NCBI GenBank assembly: GCA_024278595.1
Contig: JAJRSW010000011.1
Coordinates: 78,636 to 142,635, forward strand
Source of the DNA: Fidelibacterota bacterium
Lineage (GTDB): Bacteria; Fidelibacterota; UBA8477; JABMPR01
Length of the DNA stretch: 64,000 nt
Direction of reading: 5' to 3'
The position numbers and the translations under genes were made by a program. Numbering within the stretch: the stretch's first letter is position 1; every line of letters starts with the position of its first letter. Positions 13,622 through 63,793 of this stretch are shown in pieces. The notes beneath the pieces were generated by a model. That model was not told the origin of the DNA and did no database searches. It saw nothing but the letters and a program-made list of their open reading frames with translations.

Positions 13622-13709
13622 AGTCTTCCTGAGCGCACGCGAAGGATCTCCCCGTTGACTGTAACTCACTACCCTTAAAGTGAGATTCTTCGTTGCACTC
13701 AGAAAGACT
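13622..13709. repeat. Dispersed short inverted-repeat family R3, copy 1
   Basis: AGTCTTCCTGAGCG...GCACTCAGAAAGACT; shared with 25048..25143 and 59018..59104. Confidence 0.6.
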
Positions 13710-13822
13710 ATATTTTTAGGTCCTCTGGAATGGCTATCCTGCCCTGCATATTCACAGTCAAAAGCTGAAATAACCCTACTAAAAACCTTCTTCAATAATA
13801 CCTTTCCCGCGCAACGAAAAGG

Positions 13823-25047: not shown

Positions 25048-25143
25048 AGTCTTTCTGAACGAGTGAAACGCAGTGAAGAATCTCCTGGTTTCAGGCAGTG
25101 CGTCACAGTCAAACGGGGATCCTGCGTTCCACTCAGGAAGACT
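25048..25143. repeat. Dispersed short inverted-repeat family R3, copy 2
   Basis: AGTCTTTCTGAACGAGTGAA...GATCCTGCGTTCCACTCAGGAAGACT. Confidence 0.6.
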
Positions 25144-53543: not shown

Positions 53544-54926
53544 ATGAAATATCCACCAGAACCATTTCGAATTAAAACTGTTGAACCCATTGCCCGGACC
53601 ACTGACTGGGAACGCCTGGCTGTGATCCAGGATGCTGGATTCAACGTCTTCAATATTCCGGCTGATAAAATCTATATCGATCTACTCACCGATAGCGGGA
53701 CCAGCGCCATGAGCGATAACCAGTGGGCCGGAATGATGCGCGGTGATGAATCCTATGCCGGCAGTAAGAATTATTTTCATTTCGAACAAGCGGTGAGCAA
53801 GATCTTTGGTTTTAAGCACGTCATCCCTACCCACCAGGGTCGGGTGGCTGAAAACCTGTTGTTCTCCACGATCTTGAAAGACCAGCACGATCTGGTCATC
53901 CCAAACAACAATCACTTTGACACCACCCGGGCCAATGTGGAGTATAATGGTGGGACCGCTACCGACCTGGTGGTGGATATTGCCAAGGACACCCAAATGA
54001 TCGATGATTTCAAAGGTAACATCGATCTAAATAAACTGGCAGCTCTCATTGATCAGGTCGGCGCGGACCGAATTCCCATCGGCATGTTGACTATTACCAA
54101 TAACTCAGGCGGGGGACAACCCGTTTCCATGGCCAATATCAGGGCTACTTCAGAGTTGCTCCACCAGCATGAAATCCCTTTTTATATCGATGCCTGCCGT
54201 TTTGCTGAGAATTCCTACTTTATTAAAACCAGGGAAACTGGTTATCAGGACAAGAGCATCCTGGAGATCGCCAATGAGATGTTCTCCTATGCTGATGGCT
54301 GTACCATGAGCGCTAAAAAAGATGCCCTGGTAAATATGGGTGGTTTCTTTGCCACCAATGACGATGAACTGGCGCAGCAGATCACCAATCGACTGATCCT
54401 GATCGAGGGTTTTCCCACCTATGGTGGCCTGGCCGGTCGTGATCTGGAAGCCATCGCCCGAGGCTTGGAAGAGGTTCTGCAGGAAGATTACCTGGCTTAC
54501 CGGATCTCTCAGGTGGAAGAGTTGGGGGATCGCCTTATTGAGGCTGGCGTTCCAATTTTAAGACCCACTGGTGGCCATGCTGTTTATCTGGATGCCAAAA
54601 GTTTTCTGCCTCATGTACCCCAAGCTGAATTTCCTGGAATAGCGCTCACCGTAGCCATGTACACCCATGCCGGAATTCGAGCAGTTGAGATCGGCAGTCT
54701 CATGTTTGCCCATACGGATCCGGAAACAGGTGAAACGAGTTATCCTGATCTGGAGTTGGTCAGATTAGCCATTCCCCGACGGGTCTATACCAATAGCCAG
54801 ATGCAGTACGTGGCCGAAAATATTATTGAATTATATGAGGACCGGAAAAACATCAAGGGCTATGGGATCGAATATCAAGCCCTGGTATTAAGACACTTTA
54901 CAGCCCGGTTAAAACCATTGGAATAG
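53544..54926 (+). CDS. tnaA: Tryptophanase / tyrosine phenol-lyase family (beta-eliminating lyase)
   Basis: 460 aa; PEPFRIKTVEPIARTT, IDLLTDSGTSAMSDNQWAGMMRGDESYAGSKNYF, IPTHQGRVAEN, TNNSGGGQPVSMAN, MSAKKDALVNMGG, YGIEYQALVLRHFTARLK. Confidence 0.9.
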   Translation: MKYPPEPFRIKTVEPIARTTDWERLAVIQDAGFNVFNIPADKIYIDLLTDSGTSAMSDNQWAGMMRGDESYAGSKNYFHFEQAVSKIFGFKHVIPTHQGRVAENLLFSTILKDQHDLVIPNNNHFDTTRANVEYNGGTATDLVVDIAKDTQMIDDFKGNIDLNKLAALIDQVGADRIPIGMLTITNNSGGGQPVSMANIRATSELLHQHEIPFYIDACRFAENSYFIKTRETGYQDKSILEIANEMFSYADGCTMSAKKDALVNMGGFFATNDDELAQQITNRLILIEGFPTYGGLAGRDLEAIARGLEEVLQEDYLAYRISQVEELGDRLIEAGVPILRPTGGHAVYLDAKSFLPHVPQAEFPGIALTVAMYTHAGIRAVEIGSLMFAHTDPETGETSYPDLELVRLAIPRRVYTNSQMQYVAENIIELYEDRKNIKGYGIEYQALVLRHFTARLKPLE

Positions 54927-56947: not shown

Positions 56948-58924
56948 ATGAAGCCCACTGAAGCACTGAAGAATTTTGAAGCCACTAAACAAGACATTGG
57001 CTATGTGGATCGTCAAAACGCTACACCAAAAGACTACCAGCGGATCGGATTCAAGTCCGGCCTGGAAGTCCACCAACAACTCAAAACCAAGCGCAAACTC
57101 TTTTGCCGCTGCCCGGCCGGAGTTTATCACTCTGACGATGATTATAACGCTGAGGTCATCCGACACATGCGCCCCACCCTCAGTGAATTGGGTGAGTATG
57201 ATGGTACGGCGCTTATGGAGTTTAAGACCCGCAAAGAGATCACCTATCGTTTGAACAACCAAACAGCTTGCACTTACGAAGTCGATGATACACCCCCTTT
57301 TCCAATTGACCGTGAGGCACTGGAATTCGCTCTGGAGATCTCCCTTTTAGCTAAATTTAATATTGTGGGCGAGGTTCATATCACCCGTAAACAGTATTTG
57401 GATGGCAGTATTCCCACTGGATTTCAGCGCACAGCCATTCTGGGTGTGGAAGGTGAGATTCAATTATCGAATAAAAAGGTGGGGCTGATTCAATTGAGTA
57501 TTGAGGAGGATTCGTGTCGGGAGATATCTGACATCGGGCATAGCCGGATTTACAAAACGGATCGACTGGGAATGCCGCTGATTGAGACGGTCACCCATCC
57601 TGATATGGAAACCCCTGATGAACTGGCTGAAGCCGCTGAATACATTCGTTTTTTAAATCGGAGCACTGGAAAAGTCCGCACCGGCATGGGCGCGGGCCGG
57701 GAAGATGTGAATGTGAGCTGTGCCGGAGGTAGTCGGGTTGAGATCAAGGGTGTCGCCCATAATAAATGGATCCCTGAGCTGTCTCATAATGAGGCGTTTC
57801 GACAATGGGCCCTGCTGAATATTCGCAAATTGATCAAGGATCGGGGGCTAAAGAAGCAGACGTGGAAAATGAATTCCCAGAAGATTGATCTGTCACATCC
57901 TGAACTGTTGCCCCCCCTTTTGCGGGAAAAAATAAATCAGGGTTTGGAAGTCATTGGGATCAACCTTCCCAATTTAAAGGGAATCCTCTCTCATTTCACC
58001 CAGCCCGGCCATCCATTCGCAGCTGAGCTCATCCACCGCTTGAAAGTGATCGCCTGCATCGAACGACCTAATATGACCCACTCAGAGGAGCTTGAGCCCC
58101 TCCTTGCTCACCAGGATCTTAAGCAGATCGCCAAGTGGCTTAGGGCTGATGAGGCAGATGCCCAGATTATACTCTGGGGACCTCCCGCAGATATCCCCAC
58201 CGCTTTGGAAACTATCGAAGAACGAATTTTGATGGCCTTCGGTGGCGTACCTGAGGAGACCCGGAAATCTTTCGCCGATGGAACTACGATTTTTGAGCGG
58301 GTGCTGCCCGGCAGTGATCGCATGTATCCAGATACAGATTCAGCCCCCATCCCGCTAACCGTGGAATACATTGAAAGTCTGGGCCGAGATCTACCTCAAG
58401 ATATCTCAAGTCGTTATCAACAATTGAAAGATTGGGGGGTTCCCGCTGATACCTGGAAATATCTGCTAAGCAAAAACATGCCCCCACTCATTGAAAGAAT
58501 CTGTAACAAGTTTGGTTTTCCCCACAAATTAATCGGCTCATTTATTGGCCATACTTTCAAGAACATCGAAGGCCAGAACGAACTGCATAAGAATTTTTCC
58601 TATGAGAAAATCTATGAGCTGTTCCGCTACATCAGTGAGAAAAAACTGGTGCCCGGGATCGCTAAATTCATGATGCCGGTGATCTACGAATTTCCTGACA
58701 TGCAGTTTAGCTCCGTGCTCACCAGTATCCATTTTAAACGACGAAATCTGGTCGAGGTCCTTACCCCCATTGAATTTCTGCTTGAAAAGTTCAAAGAAAA
58801 CACACCGGATCCCGAACCTGATTCGACCATTAACTGGCTCATGGGACAGGTCCATCAACAGGCGATTGGAAATGTCCGCCTCGCGGATCTGAGACAGCAG
58901 ATCGAACAAATCATCAAATGCTAA
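56948..58924 (+). CDS. gatE: Glu-tRNA(Gln) amidotransferase subunit E (archaeal-type GatE)
   Basis: 658 aa; GFKSGLEVHQQLKTKRKLFCRCP, YEVDDTPPFPID, ITRKQYLDGSIPTGFQRTAI, IEEDSCREI, VRTGMGAGREDVNVSCAGGSRVEIKGV; GatE-specific insert ERVLPGSDRMYPDTDSAPIPLT. Confidence 0.93.
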   Translation: MKPTEALKNFEATKQDIGYVDRQNATPKDYQRIGFKSGLEVHQQLKTKRKLFCRCPAGVYHSDDDYNAEVIRHMRPTLSELGEYDGTALMEFKTRKEITYRLNNQTACTYEVDDTPPFPIDREALEFALEISLLAKFNIVGEVHITRKQYLDGSIPTGFQRTAILGVEGEIQLSNKKVGLIQLSIEEDSCREISDIGHSRIYKTDRLGMPLIETVTHPDMETPDELAEAAEYIRFLNRSTGKVRTGMGAGREDVNVSCAGGSRVEIKGVAHNKWIPELSHNEAFRQWALLNIRKLIKDRGLKKQTWKMNSQKIDLSHPELLPPLLREKINQGLEVIGINLPNLKGILSHFTQPGHPFAAELIHRLKVIACIERPNMTHSEELEPLLAHQDLKQIAKWLRADEADAQIILWGPPADIPTALETIEERILMAFGGVPEETRKSFADGTTIFERVLPGSDRMYPDTDSAPIPLTVEYIESLGRDLPQDISSRYQQLKDWGVPADTWKYLLSKNMPPLIERICNKFGFPHKLIGSFIGHTFKNIEGQNELHKNFSYEKIYELFRYISEKKLVPGIAKFMMPVIYEFPDMQFSSVLTSIHFKRRNLVEVLTPIEFLLEKFKENTPDPEPDSTINWLMGQVHQQAIGNVRLADLRQQIEQIIKC

Positions 58925-59017
58925 AAAATCACGCCACACAGTACCCAGCGAACACTGAGAGAGTTAAGATCACAGAGGGTGATTTACAAAAGCAAGCAAG
59001 ACCAGACATTTTATAGT

Positions 59018-59104
59018 AGTCTTTCTGAACGGAGTGAAGAATCCTGATACCCAATCATAAATCACAGCTATCTGGGGAGATCCTGCGTTTCACTCAGGAA
59101 GACT
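59018..59104. repeat. Dispersed short inverted-repeat family R3, copy 3 (between gatE and gatD)
   Basis: AGTCTTTCTGAACGGAGTGAAGAATC...GATCCTGCGTTTCACTCAGGAAGACT. Confidence 0.6.
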
Positions 59105-59123
59105 TTAAAAAAAAGAGTATCAA

Positions 59124-60509
59124 ATGAGTGATGATATTTTTCAAGGTTATAAAGGCTCAGCCCTAAACACCCTAAAGCGGTTTAACGTTAGGGTCTGGGG
59201 TCAAGCAGAGATCAAGACCACCCGTGGAACCTTTCAGGGTACGGTACTCCCGCGAGCTGAAAATGATGATGATCAGCATATCGTGCTTAAGATCCCAACC
59301 GGCTATAATATCGGAATTGATATCGTGACGATTGAGCAGATGGTGGAAACCGGCTATCAAAAAGCCAACTATAAGATTCCTGAAAAAGCCTTTCCTTATT
59401 CTGCTGATAAACCCAACGTGAAACTCTTTGGCACCGGGGGCACGATCGCCTCTCGGCTGGATTATCGTACAGGTGCCGTTATTCCGGCCTTTTCACCGGG
59501 TGAACTCTATGGCGCAGTTCCCGAACTGGCTGATATTTGTAATATCGACACCGAGAAACTCTTTGCTGTGTTCAGCGAGAACATGGGGCCAGATCAATAC
59601 AAGATCCTGGCAGAAAGCATTGGCAAGGAGATCGCCAATGGCACGGATGGCATCATGATCGGACACGGTACCGATACCCTGCACCATACTGCGGCAGCAT
59701 TGTCATACATGGTTCAAGACTCACCTATTCCCATCATCTTGGTGGGTTCACAGCGCTCTTCAGACCGGCCATCCTCTGATGCAGCTCTCAATCTGATCCA
59801 CGCCTCCTATGCTGCCGGTCATGGCGATATTGCGGAAACCCTGGTATGTATGTTTGGACCCACCTCAGATGAATACGGGTTTTTACACCGGGGAACCCGG
59901 GTTCGCAAGATGCACAGTTCCTACCGGTCCACCTTCCGAACCATCGGGGATACCCCCGTGGCAACGGTAACCAGCAGTGGGTTGAACATGATCAAGCAGG
60001 AATATCAACATCGACGCAAAGACAAACAGGTAAAAATCACACCAACCTTTAATGAAAAGGTTACGATGATGTATTATTACCCGCATATGAAATCGGAGAT
60101 CATGGAAGCTTTGATCGATGCCGGATATAGGGGCATCATCATTATTGGAACCGGTCTGGGACACGTGAACCGGGAACTTTATCCCGCCCTGAAAAGAGCT
60201 CAGGAAGAGGGCGTTTCGGTTTTTATGACCCTCCAGACCCTCTGGGGTTATTCGCACATGTTTGTCTATGATACTGGACGTGATATGCTGGCGCTGGGTG
60301 TGGTCCCCCTGGGGAATATGCTGCCTGAAGTGGCCTGGGTCAAACTAGGCTGGACCCTGGGCCAAACCGAGGATGTTGAGCAGATCAAAGAGATCATGTT
60401 AACCCCTATCAATGATGATATCACTGAACGGGAACCCTATAATGGTTATCTGGTCTACCAGGGCGGGGTCCCCGAAGTAGAGGGCTTTGTTAAGAATTTC
60501 CGAAAATAG
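59124..60509 (+). CDS. gatD: Glu-tRNA(Gln) amidotransferase subunit D (archaeal-type GatD)
   Basis: 461 aa; N-terminal GatD-like barrel domain then asparaginase domain: KLFGTGGTIASRLDYRTGAVIPAFSPGEL, IGHGTDTLHHTAAALSYM, GSQRSSDRPSSDAALNLIHASYAA. Confidence 0.93.
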   Translation: MSDDIFQGYKGSALNTLKRFNVRVWGQAEIKTTRGTFQGTVLPRAENDDDQHIVLKIPTGYNIGIDIVTIEQMVETGYQKANYKIPEKAFPYSADKPNVKLFGTGGTIASRLDYRTGAVIPAFSPGELYGAVPELADICNIDTEKLFAVFSENMGPDQYKILAESIGKEIANGTDGIMIGHGTDTLHHTAAALSYMVQDSPIPIILVGSQRSSDRPSSDAALNLIHASYAAGHGDIAETLVCMFGPTSDEYGFLHRGTRVRKMHSSYRSTFRTIGDTPVATVTSSGLNMIKQEYQHRRKDKQVKITPTFNEKVTMMYYYPHMKSEIMEALIDAGYRGIIIIGTGLGHVNRELYPALKRAQEEGVSVFMTLQTLWGYSHMFVYDTGRDMLALGVVPLGNMLPEVAWVKLGWTLGQTEDVEQIKEIMLTPINDDITEREPYNGYLVYQGGVPEVEGFVKNFRK

Positions 60510-60583: not shown

Positions 60584-61684
60584 ATGATAATCCCTAACCG
60601 TTCAGAGTATCTCAAACAACAGGCTAGAAATGGTCAAAAGATCATGGGTGTCCTGCCGGCCCTGTATCCCAGAGAATTGTTATGGGCTTTTGATATCCTG
60701 CCCGCTGAGATCTGGGATCCACCAGGTGATATTTTACAGGCCAACGCTCATCTGCAGACCACCATTTGTCCCGTGGTAAAACAAGGCCTGGAGTTCATTT
60801 TGAAGGATCCGGAGATCGTAACGGCCGGGTACCTATTCCCCCACACCTGTGATTCTCTGCAAAACCTGGCAACTCAGGTGAAGGACCTCATCGGTATATC
60901 AGCACCGGTGTATACTTTTTACAATCCCAAAGGGGCTTTCAGGCAGGCCACCAGGAATTATTACCAGGATGTGCTCAGGGAGCTTCAAACAACATTAGAA
61001 CAGCTCCATGGTCCCTGTGACCCGGAAAAGTTGCAGACTGCCTGCCAGTTGGGCTTCAAGATCGATACGCGGTGGAACGAACTGCAAAAAGCCTGGATGT
61101 CGGACCAGTTGCCTGTTACCAATCAGGAATATTTTGGACTCATGCGGGCCCTTGAATACATGCAACCGGCGGATTATCTGGAATTGCTGGACCAGGTCAC
61201 TGTTCAGGACCAAACGGTGATCCGAAATGACACACGACTGTTGGTTTCCGGCATCCTGCCTCCGGATATTGAGACCTTATCCTTCCTGGATGAGCTTAAG
61301 GTCAGGATCGTTGCTGACGATCTGTTAGCCGGGAGTCGCCGCATCCCCATCGTTTGCATGGATCCACCCTATGACCCCATGGAGCACCTCACCGATCGCT
61401 TTTTTATGCTGCCGCCTTGTTCCACCCGAGCCAATAGTCTTGCTGAAAGATCACACTACCTCAAGACGCTGATCGCAAAAAGCGATGCACAGGGGGTCCT
61501 TTTCAATATTGTTAAATTCTGCGAACCAGAACTTTTTGATCACCAGTTTCTGGTCAAATCACTAAAGTCGGCCGGTTTACCATTGCTCAACCTGGAAACT
61601 GAGTTACAACCCGGACTGTCCGGACAGACCAAAACCCGTATCGAAGCATTTATTGAGATGCTGGATGACCAGGTGACTGCATGA
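60584..61684 (+). CDS. 2-hydroxyacyl-CoA dehydratase / benzoyl-CoA reductase family subunit (HgdB/HgdA-like)
   Basis: 366 aa; VLPALYPRELLWAFDILPAEIWDPP, HTCDSLQNLA, GVLFNIVKFCEPELFDHQFLVKSLKSAGLPLLNLETE. Confidence 0.85.
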   Translation: MIIPNRSEYLKQQARNGQKIMGVLPALYPRELLWAFDILPAEIWDPPGDILQANAHLQTTICPVVKQGLEFILKDPEIVTAGYLFPHTCDSLQNLATQVKDLIGISAPVYTFYNPKGAFRQATRNYYQDVLRELQTTLEQLHGPCDPEKLQTACQLGFKIDTRWNELQKAWMSDQLPVTNQEYFGLMRALEYMQPADYLELLDQVTVQDQTVIRNDTRLLVSGILPPDIETLSFLDELKVRIVADDLLAGSRRIPIVCMDPPYDPMEHLTDRFFMLPPCSTRANSLAERSHYLKTLIAKSDAQGVLFNIVKFCEPELFDHQFLVKSLKSAGLPLLNLETELQPGLSGQTKTRIEAFIEMLDDQVTA

Positions 61685-63003
61685 GCATTTCAGCCAGGTT
61701 AAAGTATAGTTTCATGAAGGACATTGGTGCCCCGGCCTTGATGTCTTTAAAAGACCTGAAACCACGTCGAGCCCGTGCAGTATCTAAGGCCTTCGGTCCG
61801 CCCTTGCAGTCCAACAAACGGCTCAAGGAGATTCTGAGTCGGCACTATTTTCTGGCACGATACGCCCCGGGTGCCAAGCAAGTGGCCTGGGTCACCAGCG
61901 GGGCTCCGGTTGAATTACTACGTACCTTCGATTTCTACACGATCTACCCGGAGAATCATTCTGCCCTGATCGGCGCAAAAAAACAAGGCGCTGATTATTG
62001 TGCAATCGCTGAAAGCGCTGGGTTCAGCCAGGATCTCTGTTCTTATGCTCGTATTGATTTGGGACACCTGCTTTCAGGCAAGACGCCAGCCGGAAAACTG
62101 CCCAAACCTGACCTGCTCTTTTGCTCCAATAATATTTGCCAGACCGTGCTTTACTGGTACAAGGCCATCGCCCAGGAATTAAACATTCCCCTGATCCATT
62201 TTGATGCGCCTTTCGTCGCTATTGAACAATCTCAGCATGATGTACGCTATATGGCTCAACAACTGCAGGATATGATCCCCATTCTGGAACAGGTCAGTGG
62301 GAAAGTTTTTGACCTCAAACAATTCGAGATCATCCTCAAGCGCTCCCAGAATAGCTCAATGACCTGGGGTAGAGTATTGGAGTGCATGCAGTCTAAACCA
62401 GCTCCCATGACCATCTTTGATGCTTTTGGTCACCTGGCTCCAGTGGTTTCATTACGAGGATTACCAGTTGCCCAGGATTATTACAATATTCTATTGGAGG
62501 AGGTCGAAGACCGGGTTACCAAAGGGATCGGGGCCATCACCAATGAGCGCTACCGGCTGATCTGGGATAATATCGCGGTCTGGTATAAGGTGCGATTTCT
62601 GGCTACTTTTTTTGCAGAACGCAACATGAATTTTGTCACCGCCACCTACACCAATGCCTGGGCGGAAACCACCGGTTTCCTGGATGTAAAGGACCCCTGG
62701 TCCTCCATGGCCAAGACCTATGGACAGATCATTCTTAACAATAATTTAAAGCATCGGCTGGGCTTAATGAAAAAAATGATCCGCAACTTTTCCGTTGATG
62801 GCATGGTCATGCATTCCACCCGCAGCTGTAAGCCCTATTCGGTGGGACAATTTGATCTGCGAAAAGCTCTCAGCACAGAGTTGAACCTTCCGGCTGTGAT
62901 CCTGGATGCCGATATCGCCGATGAAAGGGTCTGGTCTGAGCAACAGATCCAAACCCGTCTGGAAGCCTTTTGTGAAACCCTGGAGGATACAAGCCTTGTC
63001 TGA
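61681..63003 (+). CDS. 2-hydroxyacyl-CoA dehydratase / benzoyl-CoA reductase family subunit
   Basis: 440 aa; overlaps preceding stop by 4 nt; VTSGAPVELLRTFDFYTIYPENHSALIGAKKQG, LLFCSNNICQTVLYWYKAIAQELNIPLIHFDAPF, MVMHSTRSCKPYSVGQFDLR. Confidence 0.85.
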   Translation: MSISARLKYSFMKDIGAPALMSLKDLKPRRARAVSKAFGPPLQSNKRLKEILSRHYFLARYAPGAKQVAWVTSGAPVELLRTFDFYTIYPENHSALIGAKKQGADYCAIAESAGFSQDLCSYARIDLGHLLSGKTPAGKLPKPDLLFCSNNICQTVLYWYKAIAQELNIPLIHFDAPFVAIEQSQHDVRYMAQQLQDMIPILEQVSGKVFDLKQFEIILKRSQNSSMTWGRVLECMQSKPAPMTIFDAFGHLAPVVSLRGLPVAQDYYNILLEEVEDRVTKGIGAITNERYRLIWDNIAVWYKVRFLATFFAERNMNFVTATYTNAWAETTGFLDVKDPWSSMAKTYGQIILNNNLKHRLGLMKKMIRNFSVDGMVMHSTRSCKPYSVGQFDLRKALSTELNLPAVILDADIADERVWSEQQIQTRLEAFCETLEDTSLV

Positions 63004-63793
63004 AAACTATTTTGCGAGTGTGGATGTGGGATCTCTCAGCACCGATGTGGTGATCATCAATTCAGCCGGGAAAACAATGAGCGAGGTCGTTCTGGACACA
63101 GGTGTCAACGGGGTGGCAGCTGCTCAAAAAGCTATCGATCTGGCGCTTGAGCACTCAAATCTCACTCAGGAGCAAGTGATAGCCGTGACTGCTACCGGGT
63201 ATGGTCGCGCTTCCGTCCCTTTTGCAAGTGGGAAGACCACTGAGATCAGTTGCCATGGTGTGGGTGCTCACCAGCTCTTCCCAAAAACCGGAACTGTCAT
63301 AGATATCGGCGGACAGGATAGTAAGGTCATCCAGATCGATGATCGCGGTCGCATGCTGGATTTCACCATGAATGATAAATGTGCTGCTGGCACAGGTCGT
63401 TTTTTGGAAGTGATGGCTGATCGACTGGAGCTGGGCTTGAACGAGTTAAGTGACCCCTCGCACATAACTGGGAAATCAGCCCGGATCAGCAGCACCTGTA
63501 CGGTGTTTGCTGAGAGTGAGGTTATCTCCCTGATGGCCAAGCATACACGTCGGGAACAGATCGTGAATGGCTTGCAACGCTCGATCGTGAATCGGATCTG
63601 GAGTATGGTGACCAGCATCGGTATTGAGGGGGAGGTGACCCTGACCGGTGGGGTCGCCAATAATCGTGGATTAGTGCTGGTTCTGGAAGAAAAATTGGGC
63701 CAGAAACTCAACGTTCCGGAAAATCCACAAACTGTTGGCGCCCTGGGAGCCGCGCTTATTGCCCTGCGAAATTTTAATAACCAGCATTTCTGA
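62996..63793 (+). CDS. hgdC: Activator of 2-hydroxyacyl-CoA dehydratase (HgdC; BadF/BadG/BcrA/BcrD ATPase family)
   Basis: Likely TTG start at 62996 (LSENYFASVDVGSLSTDVVII); IDIGGQDSKVIQID, MNDKCAAGTGRFLEVMADRL, CTVFAESEVISLMAK, LTGGVANNRG. Confidence 0.88.
   Translation: MSENYFASVDVGSLSTDVVIINSAGKTMSEVVLDTGVNGVAAAQKAIDLALEHSNLTQEQVIAVTATGYGRASVPFASGKTTEISCHGVGAHQLFPKTGTVIDIGGQDSKVIQIDDRGRMLDFTMNDKCAAGTGRFLEVMADRLELGLNELSDPSHITGKSARISSTCTVFAESEVISLMAKHTRREQIVNGLQRSIVNRIWSMVTSIGIEGEVTLTGGVANNRGLVLVLEEKLGQKLNVPENPQTVGALGAALIALRNFNNQHF

Follow-up and report, generated by a model that had tools for sequence, protein, structure and literature searches.

A GatDE-type tRNA-dependent amidotransferase gene pair in the bacterial phylum Marinimicrobia

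Can a bacterium encode the amidotransferase GatDE, and what would the enzyme do there? The question is raised by two genes in a 64,000-nucleotide stretch of contig JAJRSW010000011.1 (positions 78,636 to 142,635), referred to here as the window, from a marine bacterium of the phylum Marinimicrobia (Neomarinimicrobiota/Fidelibacterota), a member of the FCB group. Both lie on the forward (+) strand: gatE (56948..58924, 658 amino acids), for subunit E of the Glu-tRNA(Gln) amidotransferase, and gatD (59124..60509, 461 amino acids), for the glutaminase/asparaginase-like subunit D. Two open-access reviews give GatDE as restricted to archaea (PMC9499178, PMC8007984). In a non-exhaustive survey of the open-access literature on GatDE with bacteria, glutaminyl-tRNA synthetase (GlnRS) or Marinimicrobia, no title or abstract reports a bacterial GatDE; genes of this kind may already carry the name in automated annotations. 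The gene pair is nearly certainly a genuine bacterial GatDE, and its sequence makes enzymatic activity likely.

The identity of both subunits is clear from hidden Markov model scores. GatE reaches 461.1 bits against NCBIfam NF003107 (cut-off 456) and 387.2 bits against TIGR00134 (cut-off 319.55), compared with 105-115 bits against the best GatB models, about a third of their cut-offs (315-338). GatD scores 486 bits against NF003217 (cut-off 310) and 485 bits against TIGR02153 (cut-off 324). A broader type I asparaginase subfamily model is passed as well (365, cut-off 260.5), as is expected of a GatD protein, at a score below those of the GatD models. Pfam identifies GatB_N in GatE and, in GatD, the GatD_N domain PF18195 (44.6, cut-off 25.7) together with both asparaginase domains, Asparaginase and Asparaginase_C. 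The fold, the active site and the subfamily match are common to GatD and the type I asparaginases, from which GatD differs by its GatD_N domain and its GatE partner. These scores rule out a GatB next to a free cytosolic asparaginase, the alternative identity considered in a preliminary description of this DNA. In five other genomes, too, the family assignment holds above the curated NCBIfam cut-offs.

Structural comparison points the same way. The top PDB sequence matches of both subunits are the archaeal GatE and GatD of Methanothermobacter thermautotrophicus (2D6F) and Pyrococcus abyssi (1ZQ1). An AlphaFold model of GatE, with a mean predicted local distance difference test score (pLDDT) of 77.9 and some low-confidence stretches, places 1ZQ1 and 2D6F first in Foldseek (E-value 8e-35 to 1ZQ1 vs. 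6e-18 to the best GatB). H42, E186 and E213 of GatE align with H15, E157 and E184 of the M. thermautotrophicus subunit, which we take to be Mg-binding, and are unvaried across 21 Marinimicrobia GatE. Likewise, T107, T183, D184 and K262 of GatD align with T101, T177, D178 and K254, presumably the active-site residues. The call of two full-length subunits with diagnostic motifs, made initially from the sequence alone, is therefore borne out by the model scores, the kept residues, and the PDB and fold matches.

Conservation is uneven along GatE. The catalytic, cradle part, approximately residues 27-301 (57026..57850, + strand), contains the invariant blocks and is the most conserved. The C-terminal helical or tail part, approximately residues 472-658 (58361..58921, + strand), is all-helical in the model and weakly conserved between lineages; its nonsynonymous divergence (dN) exceeds that of the catalytic part, and residues 435-658, searched alone, gave no Pfam match. 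With the archaeal enzymes, the pair shares the two subunits, the GatB_N-type cradle, GatD_N joined to asparaginase and the catalytic residues. It differs from them by sequence (GatE 33-41% and GatD 43-49% identical), by the weakly conserved GatE C-terminus, by an extra N-terminal helix in GatE of the window's genus and of genome G122, and by its setting: a bacterial host, GlnRS alongside in most genomes and a tRNAGln beginning with U1-A72. The host is not an archaeon lacking GlnRS but a bacterium possessing it, although this concerns the known distribution and not the enzyme.

The order gatE then gatD, with gatD directly downstream, was found wherever both genes were seen in the phylum. In many relatives the two frames overlap by 8-11 bp; the 199-bp gap of the window (58925..59123), which carries short dispersed repeat fragments, is one of several exceptions. 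The preliminary description had singled out both the order and an intervening repeat. Both are real, but the order is standard in the phylum and not unusual; the repeat is accounted for by a 29-nt element in the gap with 93% identity to window positions 25115-25143. A short dispersed repeat is shared by 58925-59123, 25115-25143 and 13682-13712, with partial copies in other contigs of the host. Both genes are under strong purifying selection: in comparisons where synonymous sites are unsaturated, the ratio of nonsynonymous to synonymous divergence (dN/dS) lies between 0.04 and 0.08 in GatE and between 0.01 and 0.02 in GatD.

What the enzyme may do depends on the other routes to Gln-tRNA in the cell. 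The host genome (124 contigs totalling 3.26 Mb, with an estimated completeness of 94% and contamination of 0.29%) encodes a GlnRS of 741 bits (cut-off 426) with catalytic and anticodon-binding domains, one glutamyl-tRNA synthetase (GluRS) and an asparaginyl-tRNA synthetase (AsnRS), as well as tRNAGln(UUG) and tRNAGln(CUG). No GatA was found in it (positive control detected in 12 of 14), and no GatB: the sole match to the GatE/GatB family is GatE itself, and the same search detects GatB in control bacteria. The absence of GatCAB rests on GatA and GatB, GatC not having been searched. GatCAB is thus indeed missing here; as glnS is present, GatDE is not the default route. Given this GlnRS, GatDE is an addition to the direct route and not a replacement for it. 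The counterpart of GatE in bacterial GatCAB is its homologue GatB, which performs the same ATP-dependent amidation, with the difference that its ammonia is supplied by the amidase GatA with GatC.

Some features of the synthetase genes may be recorded here. The GluRS of the window's genus (in the host, L082:3488-5092) is divergent: ~33 additional residues follow its KLSKRK motif, and it does not resemble the GluRS of other families of the phylum. Its gene stands directly before glnS in many members of the genus. Clustering of gltX, glnS and tRNAGln is a tendency of the whole phylum, as on contig C94 of G122, which has the three in this order. In G080, a member of the genus, contig C108 (L301) carries a second, divergent GlnRS, ~61% identical, which is possibly contamination.

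Across the phylum, 199 genomes were sampled, including 19 of the window's genus. GatE occurs in 27 of them, from five families (25 over the cut-off and two fragments at contig ends), and gatE is found in 14 of the 19 genus members. GatD at cut-off strength is restricted to GatE-bearing genomes, among which it was unseen only in G021 and G092, whose gatE is near a contig end. The 27 comprise 21 with GlnRS and no GatB, one with both, two with GatB and no GlnRS, and three with neither. Genomes without GatE have GlnRS only (79), GatB only (59), both (10) or neither (24, mostly incomplete). On the GlnRS tree, the GatE-less genus members G015, G033, G045 and G088 are scattered among those with GatE; some are incomplete, G015 being 91% complete. 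From this distribution, gatDE has apparently been lost several times in GlnRS-bearing relatives. Second gatE copies in some genomes may reflect the binning of close strains (contamination is 5-6% in three), and apparent damage to gatE and gatD in G029 is explained by a run of N in the assembly. Among plasmid, phage and viral contigs, no close GatE was found; the matches were just a haloarchaeal fragment and GatB.

The three GatE-bearing genomes with neither GlnRS nor GatB are G061 and G085, both poor assemblies, and G026, which is 94% complete. The latter encodes a GatE of 490 bits, two GluRS, one of them with its gene close to tRNAGln(UUG), and an AsnRS; no GlnRS, no GatA and no match of GatB strength were found in it. 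Among 94 genomes with a completeness of 90% or more, just three have none of GatE, GlnRS and GatB, so a chance absence of the alternatives in G026 is unlikely. By its gene content, GatDE is probably the sole route to Gln-tRNA in this genome, which argues for amidation of Glu-tRNA(Gln) by the enzyme. Genomes G016, G073 and G099 (at least 90% complete) are without detected GatE, GlnRS and GatB, through assembly gaps or the use of another route.

The tRNA genes define the substrate that such an enzyme would meet. U1-A72 is the first pair in every tRNAGln examined, from genomes with or without GatE, and the archaeal A1-U72, a trait of the substrate and not of the proteins, was not encountered; the enzyme, if it works, must therefore read a bacterial-type tRNAGln. 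The discriminator is A73 in the window's genus and mostly G73 elsewhere in the phylum. For the archaeal enzyme, recognition is described as depending on A1:U72 and the D-loop, and A73 is given as archaeal vs. G73 as bacterial (PMC9499178). In the tRNAGln(CUG) of the genus (L280:12410-12481), the D-stem pair 13-22 is A-U in four GatE-bearing genomes and U-A in three without GatE as well as in the GatE-bearing G029, all small numbers. The residue of GluRS aligned with Arg358 of the Thermus thermophilus enzyme is Arg in the genus, in members with and without GatE alike. As a mark of discrimination it is uninformative, and the source paper itself calls the mark non-general.

Taken together, these data favor, with fair but limited confidence, a Glu-tRNA(Gln) amidotransferase that belongs to a bacterial lineage, is adapted to bacterial tRNAs and is accessory in the window's genus. 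GatD would hydrolyze glutamine (or asparagine) to release ammonia. GatE, accepting tRNAGln with U1-A72, would activate the glutamate carried by Glu-tRNA(Gln) at the expense of ATP and amidate it to Gln-tRNA(Gln). In the genus, Glu-tRNA(Gln) made by GluRS would be amidated beside GlnRS, either as a dispensable second route or as the clean-up of misacylated tRNAGln. The role beside GlnRS is uncertain, and the translation-fidelity system suggested in the preliminary description is one possibility.

Several observations weigh against this interpretation. The tRNAs present U1-A72, and archaeal GatDE is reported to read A1:U72 (PMC9499178). No tRNA feature tracks the enzyme: the tRNAGln(UUG) of G033, which lacks GatE, is identical to that of the host genome, which rules out a link of its identity with GatDE and means that A73 is not creditable to the enzyme, and the tRNAGln(CUG) gene occurs in GatE-bearing and GatE-less genomes alike. 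With GlnRS in the cell, GatDE would find little substrate in the genus should GluRS be of the kind that discriminates against tRNAGln. Finally, GatE of the genus falls in the more divergent subgroup and stands in a conserved, unexplained gene neighborhood.

The origin of the pair is a separate matter. GatE trees, of the kind proposed in the preliminary description, resolve two Marinimicrobia groups, the window's genus with G122 and the families f9, f12 and f25. They include only two or three archaeal sequences (from a methanogen, Pyrococcus and a Natrinema fragment), too few to name a donor or a root. The three archaeal GatE are 53-56% identical to each other, against the 33-41% that separates them from the bacterial ones. 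Inter-domain transfer, as suggested initially, is thus not demonstrated: no recent archaeal donor is visible, and any transfer would have been old. An old transfer and an older bacterial branch are both possible.

Among the other explanations, one keeps the tRNA chemistry and changes the amino acid: in genomes with GlnRS, GatDE would amidate Asp-tRNA(Asn), supplied by a non-discriminating aspartyl-tRNA synthetase (AspRS), for tRNA-dependent synthesis of asparagine. A precedent exists in Bdellovibrio, Deinococcus and Thermus, where an amidotransferase coexists with GlnRS and AsnRS and is used for asparagine (PMC4206432). These bacteria resemble the host in combining the direct GlnRS route with an amidotransferase in one cell, but theirs is a GatCAB acting for Asn-tRNA(Asn), where here GatDE occurs without GatCAB. 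The tRNAAsn of the host likewise begins with U1-A72. On the other hand, the host already possesses AsnRS; no second, archaeal-size AspRS appears among the AsnRS-family matches, even if one ordinary AspRS could suffice; and archaeal GatDE is described as a Glu-tRNA(Gln) enzyme (PMC9499178, PMC8007984). Moreover, the route lacking in G026 is that of glutamine, not of asparagine. Asparagine formation is, on balance, unlikely.

A second explanation, also unlikely and placed just behind the first, takes its strength from the genes downstream of gatD, all on the + strand. They encode a 2-hydroxyacyl-CoA dehydratase D-component-like protein of 366 amino acids (60584..61684; Pfam HGD-D), a second HGD-D protein of 440 amino acids from the same cluster (61681..63003) and an acyl-CoA dehydratase activase, a BcrAD/BadFG ATPase that exceeds the TIGR00241 cut-off (62906..63793; 295 amino acids as listed). 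The true start of the activase is probably downstream of the listed one, given the long overlap. Two HGD-D genes follow gatD in all 12 genus loci with sufficient flank, and the activase comes next where the contig extends. GatDE of the genus could then have been recruited to a dehydratase-linked substrate and would no longer be a tRNA enzyme, which would suit the divergence of the GatE subgroup formed with G122, its additional N-terminal helix, and the presence of GlnRS in this subgroup wherever the assembly permits judgement. Nevertheless, the first HGD-D gene lies 41-333 bp after gatD within the genus, such that co-transcription is not evident; a gene order kept within a single genus carries little weight; the catalytic residues are unaltered, as is most of the cradle domain; and the other GatDE lineages are without this HGD-D/activase neighborhood. 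A functional link between gatDE and the dehydratase cluster is only a possibility. Upstream of the pair, positions 53544-54926 hold a gene of the tryptophanase family, which possibly forms an amino-acid fermentation cluster with the genes at 60584-63793.

It is improbable that the GlnRS-bearing genomes carry gatDE as a relic without use or have acquired it transiently: the GatE-less genomes interspersed on the GlnRS tree indicate that the pair can be lost, but the strong purifying selection on both genes and the retention of gatE in most of the genus argue otherwise. No support was found for contamination by archaeal DNA or for a chimeric contig, although the assembly is a draft. Both are practically eliminated by the recurrence of the pair on many contigs and in many assemblies among bacterial neighbors (within the genus, GatE shares 78-84% identity with the window's protein), by a GC content of gatDE in line with the surrounding DNA and by the low identity to the archaeal proteins. 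The bacterial host named in the preliminary description is thereby upheld, its fear of an archaeal or chimeric contig did not materialize, and the other genes of the window (RecQ, a PBP1A-type transglycosylase/transpeptidase, a TonB C-terminus and a tail like that of the type IX secretion system) are bacterial.

A wider proposal, possible but tentative, is that Marinimicrobia own an anciently separate GatDE branch adapted to bacterial tRNAGln, the sole source of Gln-tRNA in one lineage and with a distinct role in the GlnRS-bearing lineages, be it Glu-tRNA(Gln) clean-up, tRNA-dependent asparagine formation or a dehydratase-linked substrate. The argument on the evolution of Gln-tRNA formation leans on a split in which GatDE is confined to archaea. 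A bacterial GatDE, with one lineage that seems to rely on it, opens three points to direct test: the ability of the enzyme to act on tRNAGln of the bacterial type, the reason for which GlnRS was never adopted by archaea, and the role of an amidotransferase beside GlnRS. For these questions, the most informative genome is not that of the host but G026.

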